The notes under the pieces were generated by a model. That model was not told where the DNA came from and ran no database searches. It saw only the letters and a program-made list of their open reading frames with translations. Made by a program: the position numbers and the translations under genes. A stretch of 64,000 bases of DNA. It comes from Neotamlana laminarinivorans (GTDB taxonomy: Bacteria; Bacteroidota; Bacteroidia; Flavobacteriales; Flavobacteriaceae). The stretch covers positions 62,001 through 126,000 of the forward strand of contig NZ_JAJAPW010000001.1 of assembly GCF_020523925.1 (NCBI RefSeq). The letters are read 5' to 3'. Shown here piece after piece: positions 34,603-38,457 of the stretch (the stretch's first letter is position 1; each line of letters begins with the position of its first letter).

Positions 34603-35268
34603 ATGTTGTTTAATCGATTTTATTTGGTTTTAATCGATTTTATTATCCGGGTTCTTTATAAAACTTCGAACTGTTCTTCAATCTATAATATTGTCATATC
34701 ATTAACCGAAAACCAATTAATTTTGAAAGACGAAGCCATTATCTCAAGAATTTTAGATTTAAACGAAACGCATTATTTTGAAACTATTTACGATAGATAT
34801 TCAACTCATATTTATAATAAATGTTTCTCTTTTGTAAAGAATGAAGCTGAGGCAAAAGATTTAACTCAAGATATTTTTTTAAAGTTATATTTAAAATTAT
34901 CTAGTTTTCAAGGGAGGTCTAAGTTTTCAACTTGGGTTTATTCATTCACATATAATTATTGTATAAACTATGTAAATAGAAATGCAAAAAGAAAATATGA
35001 AATGCGATTGAATGAGGATTTCGATTTAGAAAATGTTGGAGAATGCATAGATACAACTTTAACTAAACAAGTACAGGCAGAAGAACAACTTATAAAAGCA
35101 ATGGAACAATTGCCTGTTAAAGACAAAATGATTTTAGAATTAAAATACTTGCAAAAGCTTAGTGTAAAAGATATTGAAACTAAATTAAACTTAGGGTCTA
35201 GTGCCGTTAAAATGAGAATAAAAAGAGCTAAAGAACGCTTAGCAGATACTTATGCAACAGTGGCTTAA
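34603..35268 (+). CDS. Sigma-70 family (ECF-type) RNA polymerase sigma factor
   Basis: This ECF-like sigma factor has region 2 (about 53-115: YFETIYDRYSTHIYNKC, AKDLTQDIFLKLYLKL, SKFSTWVYSFTYNYC) and region 4 (about 160-215: QLPVKDKMILELKYLQKLSVKDIE, SSAVKMRIKRAKERL). The start is uncertain. The only upstream ATG (34603) adds about 33 hydrophobic residues unlike the family; the normal N-terminus seems to begin near residue 34 (SLTENQ), where the codons are ATA/TCA/TTA. TTG at 34723 is another option. No anti-sigma gene is adjacent. It converges on the hybrid kinase with six bases between. Confidence 0.82.
   Translation: MLFNRFYLVLIDFIIRVLYKTSNCSSIYNIVISLTENQLILKDEAIISRILDLNETHYFETIYDRYSTHIYNKCFSFVKNEAEAKDLTQDIFLKLYLKLSSFQGRSKFSTWVYSFTYNYCINYVNRNAKRKYEMRLNEDFDLENVGECIDTTLTKQVQAEEQLIKAMEQLPVKDKMILELKYLQKLSVKDIETKLNLGSSAVKMRIKRAKERLADTYATVA
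34611..34644. repeat. Two tandem 14-base direct repeats at the start of the sigma factor frame
   Basis: TAATCGATTTTATT occurs at 34611-34624 and again at 34631-34644, a 20-base period. It covers what would be the first codons of the sigma factor and may be non-coding leader or a protein-binding site; 20 bases is about two DNA helical turns. Confidence 0.55.
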
Positions 35269-35274
35269 GTAAAA

Positions 35275-36786
35275 TTATTTTAAGTGTTTTTTAATGCTTT
35301 CTAGAAGTTTATGTTTATCAAAAGGTTTTACCAAAACATCATTAATGCCATTTTTCTTATAACGCTTTATATCGTCTTTATAGCCTTGTGTAGATAAAAC
35401 AATAATTGGTGTTTTTTTGTATTCTTTTGATAGACTTCTAATAGAAGCAGATATATTAGAGGCAGAATACCCTTGAATAGTATTTGATAGTAGTATTAAA
35501 TCGACCTTTTGGTCTACTAGATTAGGAATAACTGCTTCACCATCAGAAATTATATTAATGAAAAATAAACCTGTAGATGCCAAAATTTTTAAAATCGATA
35601 ATTGAATTATCTCAGAATCCTCAACTAATAAAATATTATATTTTTGCTTCAATTCTGGAAGCTGGTTATTTAATAGTTCTTCTTTTTGATCTTGAGTATA
35701 GTTTGATGTTTTAAAGCTAACATTGAATATAAAAGTAGATCCTTTGTCTATTTTACTTTCAACTTTAATATTTCCTTGCATTTCAGAAATTAGGTATTTT
35801 ACAATAGCTAATCCTAGGCCAACGCCGGTTTGTTCTTCACCTGTTTCAATTTTAGTAAATCTATCAAAAATAGATTCTAGGTTTTCTTCTGCTATACCAC
35901 ATCCAGTGTCTTCAACTTCAAAATGTAAATTAACTTTGTTTGCTCTAGAGTGGTTATGCGAAACTTTAATGTGTAAATGCCCCTTGCTTGTATAGCTTAA
36001 AGCATTGGTTAATAAGTTTGCTAAAATTTGTTTTAATCTATATTGATCGCCCTCAATAAAAGTTGGCACTTTTTCTCCTATTTCTAATTTAAAAGATAAC
36101 CCTTTTTTACTTGCTAAGTAGTTATAAATAACTTCAATATTTTTTAGCAATTCTTTTAAATTAAAAACTTTACTAACCAAAATTAGTTTGCCAGATTCAA
36201 TTTTGCTTATATCTAAAATGTCTTCAATGCGTTGTTTTAAATCTTTATTTGCCGATTGAATTATTTCTAGATAATTTTTTTGCTCGTCGTTTAAGTTGCT
36301 ATTTATTAATAAATCGCTAAATATTGTTGATGCTGTTATTGGGTTACGTAACTGGTGACTAAAATTGGCTATAAAATTATTTTTAAAAGTTTCTTTTTCA
36401 AGCAAATATTCGTTTTTAAGTACAAGAATTTGTGAGTTTATTATAGATTCGTTTCTGGTTTGTGCTGTAAGTTGGTAATTATTATAATGCTTGGTTAGGT
36501 TTTCAATAATTACCAAGTTATTGTTGTTGTGGGTTTTTAATGTAACATCAACAACTAAAGGTTCTTGATTATTAAAATCTAGATTTATACACGAAAACTC
36601 AAAACTTTCATTTACTGTAGTGAGTAAATGCGTTAATATCTCGAAAAAAGGATGAATATCTTGAATTTTTTCGCCAATTATTGTTGGTAAAATAGGATGA
36701 TCTTGTTCTAAAACAACACCTAAATCGTCAACTAAAATGTATTGAAAATTATTTTTGTGATATTTATCTTTTAATTCTTTAAGCAT
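35275..36786 (-). CDS. Hybrid histidine kinase with a degenerate receiver domain
   Basis: The 503 residues comprise an N-terminal PAS-like region (1-110), a coiled linker, HisKA with His144 in FSHQLRNPI, a HATPase domain (N box ILANLLTNAL, G1 DTGCGIAE, G2 GVGLGLAIVK) and a C-terminal receiver (383-503). The receiver keeps Glu389-Asp390, Ser465/Thr466 and Lys487, but the phosphoacceptor position is Ser434 (LILLSNT) in place of Asp. It has no membrane segment, so it is cytoplasmic. The ATG follows the stop of the upstream GTPase gene with no gap. I infer that it reports or receives a state from the GTPase module. Confidence 0.9.
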   Translation of the reverse strand: MLKELKDKYHKNNFQYILVDDLGVVLEQDHPILPTIIGEKIQDIHPFFEILTHLLTTVNESFEFSCINLDFNNQEPLVVDVTLKTHNNNNLVIIENLTKHYNNYQLTAQTRNESIINSQILVLKNEYLLEKETFKNNFIANFSHQLRNPITASTIFSDLLINSNLNDEQKNYLEIIQSANKDLKQRIEDILDISKIESGKLILVSKVFNLKELLKNIEVIYNYLASKKGLSFKLEIGEKVPTFIEGDQYRLKQILANLLTNALSYTSKGHLHIKVSHNHSRANKVNLHFEVEDTGCGIAEENLESIFDRFTKIETGEEQTGVGLGLAIVKYLISEMQGNIKVESKIDKGSTFIFNVSFKTSNYTQDQKEELLNNQLPELKQKYNILLVEDSEIIQLSILKILASTGLFFINIISDGEAVIPNLVDQKVDLILLSNTIQGYSASNISASIRSLSKEYKKTPIIVLSTQGYKDDIKRYKKNGINDVLVKPFDKHKLLESIKKHLK

Positions 36787-37281
36787 TTATTTTTGTATTA
36801 AATCTTGGGCTAGTTTGGCAAAGAGTTTTTCAACTCTGCTTCCTGTTTTAGCACTAACAAAATAATCTACAACATTATCAAACTGTTCGCTATGCTCTTT
36901 TAAATATATTTTATTTACTAAATCTACTTTGTTGCCAACTACTTTAACAGGAACGGTTGAGAAGTTTTCTTTTAAAAAGGCTAATTCATCATTAAGATGC
37001 TCGAAAGTTACTGGTCTGGTTAAATCGAAAACATATATAAAACCGTTGGTACCCAGTAGGTAAGAAGGTCTGGTTTTTTTTATATCGTCTTGTCCTTCTA
37101 AATCCCAGATAATTAATGAAATATCTTCATTTTCAGAAATATTTATAGTTCTTTTAGAAATATGTACGCCAATGGTAACTTTGTAGTCTTCGGTAAAGGT
37201 GTTTTCAACAAAACGTCTTATTAAAGAGGTTTTACCAACACCAAAGTGCCCAATTAAAACAATTTTCTTAGATATCGTCAT
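36787..37281 (-). CDS. Ras/Rab-like small GTPase
   Basis: The 164 residues are a complete stand-alone small GTPase. G1 is GHFGVGKTS (11-19), the switch I Thr is Thr36 (DYKVTIG), G3 is WDLEGQD with Asp60, Gly63 and the catalytic Gln64, G4 is NKVD (117-120) and G5 is SAK (143-145). Gln64, absent or displaced in MglA-type proteins, is retained, so intrinsic hydrolysis may be Ras-like. There is no C-terminal prenylation motif or membrane segment. It overlaps the upstream roadblock-like gene by 14 bases and abuts the kinase gene. Its role is not known. Confidence 0.92.
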   Translation of the reverse strand: MTISKKIVLIGHFGVGKTSLIRRFVENTFTEDYKVTIGVHISKRTINISENEDISLIIWDLEGQDDIKKTRPSYLLGTNGFIYVFDLTRPVTFEHLNDELAFLKENFSTVPVKVVGNKVDLVNKIYLKEHSEQFDNVVDYFVSAKTGSRVEKLFAKLAQDLIQK

Positions 37282-38086
37282 TCTTAAAAAATTCTTCTAG
37301 TTTTTTTGATAATAATGGTTTGTTTTGTAGTAGCTTAGCTATTTTATGTTTGTCTGCAAATTCTAAAAGTTCATCTTCTAAATCGTCTTTAAAAATAACA
37401 TTATACACTCCAGAAATTACTACGGCTATATAAAATGAAGAAAAATTTTGAATATGTATATGGTATAAATCGTACTCTATATATTGTAAACTTTGGTCTT
37501 CTTTTATAAAGGCATCTTCAACAAAACTTTTAATGGCTGTTAGCATACCAGCAACCATATCTTCATCGGCCATTTTGTTTTTAGAATATTCTGCAAGCAA
37601 TAGTCCGGATCCTTTTTCAATAACTATAATTTGTTCAATTTTTGCATTATTGTGGTCTTGTAAAATTAAATCGGATTCGCTTACCCCAGCTGCTTTAGAC
37701 TTTGCTCTTCTGAAAAAACGTTTAAAAGAAAAGGTTTTATTTACCTGATTATTTATTTTTTCGGAAAGCATTTTCATTTCATGTTGTACATAGCGTTTAA
37801 TCATTTTACCCATAATAGGGAAAAGTGCTTCTACAACAGCATCTTGTGAGTTTTTAATTTCAGCTTTTAAAGTACTGGTTATGGTTGGGCCGAGGGTTTC
37901 GGGAATGTCTTTAACGAAATTATTTAGTTTTGAGTCGATTATAGGATTAACTTTTTCAGATAATTCCTTTTGTTTGTTAATTGTGTTTTCTAGAATTTGT
38001 ATTTTTTTTTCAATAGATGAGACAAACTCCCGCTCGTCGGTAAGTAAAATATCCTTAATAATATTTAGTTTCTCGTCTTGGTTCAT
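37268..38086 (-). CDS. Coiled-coil protein with roadblock/LC7-like domain, possible GTPase partner
   Basis: This 272-residue protein has no signal peptide. Residues 1-80 form a charged helical region; about 81-135 contain VVEALFPIMGKMIKRYVQHE and FSFKRFFRRAKSKAAG, a helical pair I recall from N-termini of proteobacterial and cyanobacterial proteins annotated as OmpA-family. Residues about 150-230 (IEQIIVIEKGSGLLLAEYS, MVAGMLTAIKSFVEDAF, HIQNFSSFYIAVVISG) have the beta-alpha-beta rhythm of roadblock/LC7 domains, which act as GTPase activators or scaffolds. The OmpA domain is absent here. The gene overlaps the GTPase gene. The fold assignment is inferred from pattern only. Confidence 0.72.
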   Translation of the reverse strand: MNQDEKLNIIKDILLTDEREFVSSIEKKIQILENTINKQKELSEKVNPIIDSKLNNFVKDIPETLGPTITSTLKAEIKNSQDAVVEALFPIMGKMIKRYVQHEMKMLSEKINNQVNKTFSFKRFFRRAKSKAAGVSESDLILQDHNNAKIEQIIVIEKGSGLLLAEYSKNKMADEDMVAGMLTAIKSFVEDAFIKEDQSLQYIEYDLYHIHIQNFSSFYIAVVISGVYNVIFKDDLEDELLEFADKHKIAKLLQNKPLLSKKLEEFFKNDDI

Positions 38087-38100
38087 CTATTAAATTAAAA

Positions 38101-38457
38101 CTACTCAGCAATTTTTTCACCTAATTTAATAAAAAGCTCGCTCAGTAATTTTCTGTCGGCTTTTTTATCTCCTAAGTCGTCTAACTTATCGTTTACTGTA
38201 TTTTCTAATTCGGTTACGCGAATGTTAATATCGGTACTAAGTGAATCAATACTTTGTAATAATTCAGATTCTACGGTACTAATTAACTCTTGTAATTCTT
38301 GTTTTTTATTAAGAATATCTTTTTTAAGTGTTTCGAACTCTTCGTTATATTCTTGAATATTTTCACCGAAAATAAGCTCTTTTATAGCATCAATTTTAGA
38401 TGCATTACTTTTTTCTGAACCGTTTACATTTTTAGTAATGTCTTCGTTATTCTTCAT
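38101..38457 (-). CDS. Coiled-coil protein, first gene of the GTPase operon
   Basis: This 118-residue hydrophilic protein has heptad-like spacing of Leu/Ile from about 40 to 105 and no signal peptide or membrane segment. KIDAIKELIFGENIQEY (21-37) resembles the opening of the 272-residue neighbour (LNIIKDILLTDEREF), so the two may share a common N-terminal helix. It is 14 bases upstream of that gene and probably forms part of the same complex. Function is unknown. Confidence 0.8.
   Translation of the reverse strand: MKNNEDITKNVNGSEKSNASKIDAIKELIFGENIQEYNEEFETLKKDILNKKQELQELISTVESELLQSIDSLSTDINIRVTELENTVNDKLDDLGDKKADRKLLSELFIKLGEKIAE

Follow-up and report, generated by a model that had tools for sequence, protein, structure and literature searches.

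The window analysed here, a stretch of 64,000 nucleotides from Neotamlana laminarinivorans (contig NZ_JAJAPW010000001.1), carries on its minus strand, at positions 35275-38457, a four-gene operon encoding in order of transcription a predicted coiled-coil protein (CC), a roadblock-like protein (RB), a Ras-like small GTPase and a hybrid histidine kinase. This is a real and conserved signalling operon, found in many marine flavobacteria, and it represents a variant of the Group 1 Rup system that lacks OmpA, of a kind already described in 2014 (Wuichet and Sogaard-Andersen, 2014; PMC4316618). It is moderately likely, in our judgement, that it works as a GTPase-gated cytoplasmic kinase module, forming an OmpA-less branch of Group 1 Rup and being analogous to the actinobacterial conservon. 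New here are the probable assignment of RB to the roadblock/longin superfold, the branch of operons with a short RB protein, stand-alone glutamine-bearing domains and a lineage-specific shift in catalytic residues. A soluble four-protein version would make communication between a bacterial Ras-like GTPase and a histidine kinase testable in vitro and, if the roadblock/longin assignment is true, Rup systems share a plan with MglA-MglB, the conservon and the eukaryotic Rag-Ragulator, in which proteins of roadblock or longin fold serve as platforms for small GTPases.

Gene order and relation to known systems

An earlier note on this DNA, made from the letters by themselves, had described four minus-strand genes with a 14-base gap, a 14-base overlap and an exact stop-to-ATG junction, and both coordinates and junctions were recovered exactly: CC and RB are separated by 14 nt, RB and the GTPase overlap by 14 nt, and the GTPase stop codon abuts the ATG of the kinase. 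The GTPase has all the motifs from G1 to G5 (Pfam Ras, E 4.4e-33), and the Pfam content of the kinase is HisKA, HATPase_c and Response_reg. Scanning of the window proteins returned no Pfam or NCBIfam match at cut-off for CC and no Pfam family match for RB, neither Robl_LC7 (PF03259) nor OmpA. Of the five Ras-family matches in the window's genome, the operon GTPase is the only one whose open frame is small (169 aa); the frames of the other four range from 293 to 939 aa.

Counting the window's own genome, relatives of RB occur in 9 of 60 related genomes, in 87 of 397 genomes and 59 of 237 genera of the family (a few of them fragments), and in 14 of 395 genomes across the phylum. Gene order was compared across 149 loci whose RB is short (short-RB loci), 80 of which come from a named genome collection (the best 80 of 468 stretches encoding an RB relative, a set biased toward close kin and Aquimarina) and 68 from other genomes, the remaining one being the window. 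Nearly all of the 68 belong to the window's family; L148 and L149 fall outside the family in the same order, and L144 outside the order in the same class. Several genomes are represented twice, and short duplicates (L001-L036), fragmentary matches (G088, G105) and all loci with a long RB were excluded.

CC adjoins RB at every one of these loci (149/149), the GTPase comes next at 144/149 and a kinase-family frame is present at 143/149, all four genes standing in order at 143; the order is thus kept in Flavobacteriaceae beyond the strain of the window. The kinase-family frame directly follows the GTPase at 143 of the 144 GTPase-bearing loci. By length, 135 of the 143 frames reach at least 440 aa, 3 are partial and 5 consist of the N-terminal domain alone (about 200 aa), and the overlap between RB and GTPase measures exactly 14 nt in 106/144 loci. 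The arrangement is not a matter of chance, and the earlier proposal of a signalling operon in which a histidine kinase goes together with a Ras-like GTPase and a roadblock-like protein is supported.

Outside this branch, 12 loci with long RB frames (598 to 738 aa) were gathered from eleven other Bacteroidota genomes. CC was recognised at 9/12 of them and the GTPase at 7/12, on either strand, the filter applied to open reading frames possibly hiding some. The only relative of RB returned by a search of plasmids is that of Nostoc, where the output is a hybrid kinase with Hpt. All 12 long RB proteins scanned, 11 from other Bacteroidota (L142 being left out) and the one from Nostoc, carry OmpA, in line with the OmpA-fused relatives mentioned in the earlier note, and the window operon belongs to an OmpA-less branch of Flavobacteriaceae and near kin. 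The outputs at L135, L136, L139, L140, L142 and L143 are histidine kinases, while those at L132:2902-4656, L133:8502-10256 and L134:2895-4679 are PAS/sigma-54 activators with a Fis-type helix-turn-helix and the glutamine-bearing domain. An output of the sigma-54 activator type is not named in the sections of Wuichet and Sogaard-Andersen (2014; PMC4316618) consulted here. At L137, L138 and L141 the CC-RB pair has no recognised neighbouring GTPase or kinase.

In those sections, the Group 1 Rup GTPase is accompanied by three neighbours. One is a coiled-coil protein; another contains a domain of unknown function, after which a transmembrane helix and OmpA often come; the third is the output protein, which bears an invariant glutamine in its N-terminal part and in the typical case is a histidine kinase or a diguanylate cyclase/phosphodiesterase. 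The taxa include Bacteroidetes, the G3 glutamine is missing and the system is likened to the conservon; no Rup protein had been characterised as of 2014 (PMC4316618), and no experimental work on a Rup system was found in the literature since then, among the matches listed. The histidine kinase as fourth gene already appears there, so that the split form with a kinase can no longer be called unreported, as it had seemed at first. The window operon shares with Group 1 Rup the four-gene neighbourhood (in order at 143/149 loci) and the invariant glutamine of the output (26/26). It differs in that RB has neither membrane helix nor OmpA, a trait that the paper gives with the word "often" and not as strictly defining, that its GTPase has a glutamine at G3, and that its receiver has no phospho-acceptor aspartate. 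Since the glutamine state of the window is confined to one clade, the operon is better described as a variant of the Rup system than as a typical member.

The conservon (AGPS; CvnA-D) is likewise an operon of a histidine kinase, a roadblock protein, a small Ras-like GTPase and one more protein (PMC13343842; PMC4316618). In the conservon CvnC is a domain of unknown function, and membrane helices and HAMP are shown in the drawing of CvnA (PMC4316618); here the extra protein is a predicted coiled coil without recognised family, and the kinase, a hybrid, has no separate membrane segment. Judged by the description of the Cvn proteins, the gene set CvnA-CvnB-CvnC-CvnD is not found here, CC having no recognised family and the window's genome no match to Robl_LC7 at E 0.1 or better. 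MglA-MglB of Myxococcus also pairs a small GTPase with a partner of roadblock fold, but the RB of the window, with 272 aa and long helices, has no Robl_LC7 match, and the GTPase, compared by the names of its solved relatives, has most of its 60 listed best relatives named Rab and none named MglA.

Fold of the RB protein

The AlphaFold2 model of RB, built on a 71-row alignment, has a mean predicted local distance difference test score (pLDDT) of 70 and a predicted template modelling score (pTM) of 0.45, and consists of two long helices followed by an a-bb-a-bbb-a arrangement. Its top Foldseek matches are clathrin-adaptor entries (sigma chains by chain letter), Ragulator/Rag, Mon1-Ccz1 and dynein roadblock, with a best E of 1.4e-4 and 6 matches at E <= 0.001; structure prediction thus gives a fold related to roadblock/LC7. 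Comparison by hhalign of the RB profile with a profile of 21 chosen Bacteroidota roadblock domains (Robl_LC7) gave a probability of 74% and an E of 2.8e-5 for the single comparison, while the control profiles gave 0.4% (GTPase), 0.1% (receiver) and 14.3% (kinase N-terminal domain) against the same roadblock profile, and the kinase N-terminal domain gave 0.3% against the RB profile. The profile match is moderate, with the N-terminal domain control above zero. Against the sequences of solved structures the RB profile found four weak matches only: three envelope glycoproteins in the helical part (residues 31-78; E 0.014 at best) and TRAPP Bet5 along residues 162-251 (E 0.17).

Given the fold matches and the 74% profile match with low controls, the C-terminal domain of RB probably has the roadblock/longin superfold. 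The roadblock part that the earlier note had seen in the 272-residue protein stands at this level, by likeness of the predicted fold and a moderate profile match; its label of "MglB-type" proved too specific, and kinship to MglB in particular is not shown by the models. The domain of unknown function of the Rup paper is, by the same models, probably a roadblock/longin fold too.

Coupling between GTPase and kinase

The kinase model (mean pLDDT 86) shows a PAS-like N-terminal domain (N-domain), a long helix, the ATPase domain and the receiver, and its best Foldseek matches are kinases, including GacS, ShkA, LOV-kinases and RetS. Gln109 of the N-domain is kept in 137/137 of the short-RB operons having that column. 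It is also present in each of 26 chosen output proteins whose N-terminal parts were aligned: 16 come from short-RB operons and include one N-domain without kinase, nine come from other Bacteroidota (three sigma-54 activators and six kinases), and the last is the Nostoc kinase. In the same alignment Gln15 is found in 16/26. Gln109 is probably the invariant output glutamine shown in the logo of the Rup paper.

A stand-alone N-domain accompanies a second GTPase at six loci (L168, L170, L176, L182, L184 and L190). Five of them have a GTPase, an N-domain of some 200 aa, a second GTPase and the kinase in that order, and at L190 two N-domain pieces lie between the two GTPases; three more loci have the order N-domain, GTPase, kinase. 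Of the observations made here, the retained N-domain next to an additional GTPase gives the clearest hint that this domain may be the GTPase-facing part of the kinase. In the two-GTPase operons, the first GTPase has Phe at G3 and is followed by the glutamine-bearing domain instead of a kinase. At 13 loci, among them L051-L062, the hybrid kinase is directly followed by another one that has diverged from it and has an N-domain of its own, and the 5-kb loci could conceal more such duplications.

The maximal hydropathy over 19 residues is 0.38 for CC, 1.48 for RB, 1.08 for the GTPase and 1.8 for the kinase. The RB peak (residues 214-232) falls in the roadblock-like domain and that of the kinase in the receiver and, as both peaks lie inside predicted folds, all four proteins read as soluble. 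Together with the absence of OmpA and the models, this points to a cytoplasmic location.

In the mechanism that we favour, CC and RB would act together as a scaffold; through the roadblock/longin-like domain this scaffold would bind the small GTPase and determine which nucleotide state it adopts, RB acting perhaps as a GTPase-activating protein (GAP) or as a guanine nucleotide exchange factor. The GTP-bound GTPase would then dock on the glutamine-bearing PAS-like N-domain and alter kinase activity via the connecting helix, the signal running from GTPase to kinase, and in the clade of the window the receiver would serve, unphosphorylated, as a regulatory domain. ShkA (PDB 6qrj), the second-best Foldseek match of the kinase model over 485 columns, fits loosely (TM-scores 0.38 and 0.41, root-mean-square deviation 14). 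A pseudo-receiver gates the activity of ShkA, and we know of no GTPase operon associated with it.

The direction of signalling could also be the reverse, with the kinase upstream, sensing a cytoplasmic signal by its PAS-like domain and setting the state of RB and GTPase, and with GTP-bound GTPase, acting on some further target, as the output. The window operon contains no separate response regulator, the receiver aspartate was altered at least three times on the operon tree, and in the conservon the GTPase has been posited as the output because a response regulator is absent there (PMC4316618). In other Bacteroidota the fourth gene can nevertheless be a PAS/sigma-54 activator with the same glutamine-bearing domain (L132, L133, L134), which fits a fourth gene acting as output, and we hold the reversed direction to be unlikely, if worth keeping in view. 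Simple co-expression, with GTPase and CC-RB joined in a complex of their own and the kinase working independently as a two-component protein, would agree with the persistence of CC-RB without GTPase and kinase at 5/149 loci and with a kinase diverging faster than the GTPase (76% vs 97% identity to L038). It is hard to reconcile with a kinase-family frame right after the GTPase in 143/144 loci, with Gln109 in 26/26 outputs of differing kinds and with a kinase-less N-domain retained beside a second GTPase, and it appears improbable.

Several observations weigh against the GTPase-gated kinase module. The RB model is of medium confidence and its Foldseek TM-scores are low (for the best match 0.31 by query and 0.53 by target), the Robl_LC7 match is missing, and RB and the kinase carry hydrophobic stretches (1.48 and 1.8), though the models put both inside folded domains. 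The GTPase of the window has the G3 glutamine said to be absent in Group 1 Rup (PMC4316618). CC-RB occurs without adjacent GTPase or kinase at 5/149 loci, three of them distinct (L108/L154, L114/L208, L203), and the GTPase went unrecognised at 5/12 loci of other Bacteroidota, so that CC-RB may act alone or with distant partners.

Residue shifts in the window clade and flanks of the operon

A FastTree tree was built from RB and GTPase after masking of the G3 column; it places the window in an 18-row clade (SH-like support 100) containing all 14 rows with glutamine at G3. Over 139 distinct full operons the G3 residue is N in 40, H in 37, T in 30, Q in 14, F in 5, Y in 4, S in 3, L and E in 2 each, and P and K in 1 each, the glutamine being absent in 125/139 short-RB operons and in 8/8 GTPases outside the branch. 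The residue after the HisKA histidine is E in 115, Q in 16, K in 5 (all kinase-less N-domains) and D in 1, with 2 gaps, and the receiver column holds D in 105, S in 16, K in 7, A in 4 and T in 1, with 6 gaps. In the window clade the receiver aspartate is missing in 18/18 rows, His-Glu has become His-Gln in 16/18 and Gln109 is kept in 18/18. The five G motifs with Gln64 and the receiver without aspartate (Ser434), both pointed out in the earlier note, are thus present; what does not hold is to take these two residue states for family features, as Gln occurs in 14/139 operons and Asp in 105/133, and both are traits of the clade. The tree needs a minimum of 4 changes for Gln, 3 for the aspartate of the receiver and 2 for His-Gln, counts that by themselves give no direction.

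A strict pairing of G3 glutamine with the missing aspartate, seen early on in 14/14 glutamine operons, was weakened by more genomes. The kinase is altered and the GTPase glutamine absent at L205 (Tyr at G3) and L206 (His), L043 and L045 (Leu at G3) have no receiver aspartate and retain the glutamate after the histidine, and ten more operons outside the clade have neither receiver aspartate nor G3 glutamine. Since all glutamine rows and the first four exceptions fall in one 18-row clade, the pairing is mostly the history of one lineage.

It may be suggested, as a doubtful reading, that in this clade the regained cis glutamine, the change from His-Glu to His-Gln and the lost aspartate amount to a shift from phosphorelay to a GTP-timed output without receiver phosphorylation. 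In HisKA domains, His-Gln would be expected to lower autokinase activity, although working His-Gln kinases may exist. The reading presupposes the speculation that Group 1 Rup outputs act as GAPs supplying the glutamine in trans (PMC4316618). Against it count the invariance of Gln109 in all 18 clade rows, the two rows with an altered kinase and no GTPase glutamine, the two Asp-less rows with Glu kept and no Gln, and the fact that within the clade each change is about one event.

Relative to the nearest relative, L037, the ratio of nonsynonymous to synonymous substitution rates (dN/dS) is 0.19 for CC, 0.09 for RB, 0.03 for the GTPase, 0.11 for the kinase, 0.05 for the receiver and 0 for HisKA; relative to L038 the values are 0.07, 0.04, 0.04, 0.09, 0.09 and 0.008, with dS from 0.6 to 1.6. 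These values suggest purifying selection on each of the four genes and also on the receiver that lacks Asp. That the module is degenerate, its kinase side having lost phosphotransfer and decaying in the window lineage, might be read from the clade-wide lack of the receiver aspartate (18/18) and the frequency of His-Gln (16/18); the low dN/dS against both relatives (kinase 0.11/0.09, HisKA 0/0.008, receiver 0.05/0.09), the retention of conserved ATP-domain residues and the intact reading frame make this highly improbable. Compared with window 35275-36786, the L038 kinase is 66% identical in the ATPase domain and 96% in HisKA; recombination or fast divergence are both possible.

Table 1. Features of the operon, with positions in the window.
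Feature	Position	Strand	Description
CC	38101..38457	-	118 aa; predicted coiled coil; leading gene of the operon; sub-threshold helical Pfam matches only
RB	37268..38086	-	272 aa; N-terminal long helices and probable C-terminal roadblock/longin-like domain; no OmpA part
RB roadblock/longin-like domain (probable)	37349..37678	-	residues about 137-246; a-bb-a-bbb-a; AlphaFold2, Foldseek, hhalign
Ras-like small GTPase	36787..37281	-	164 aa; assigned to Rup Group 1 from its gene context; G3 WDLEGQ
Gln64 codon (GTPase G3 position)	37090..37092	-	N, H or T at this position in 107/139 operons
Hybrid histidine kinase	35275..36786	-	503 aa; sole hydrophobic peak (396-414) within the receiver fold
Kinase N-domain, PAS-like (model)	36412..36786	-	residues 1-125; Gln15 and invariant Gln109 (codon 36460-36462)
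HisKA domain	36190..36384	-	Pfam; His144 followed by Gln145 (Glu in 115/139)
HATPase_c domain	35716..36051	-	Pfam; keeps residues conserved in the family alignment
Receiver-like domain	35293..35634	-	Response_reg; Ser434 replaces the phospho-acceptor Asp (codon 35485-35487)

The flanks of the operon are not conserved. A helicase neighbour was seen at 5/71 large named loci, two of these being of 22% identity and distant from the operon. An extracytoplasmic function (ECF) sigma factor gene (window 34603-35268) is convergent with the 3' end of the operon; a functional tie to it was rejected, such a gene standing beside the operon in 3/71 large named loci, near relatives only.

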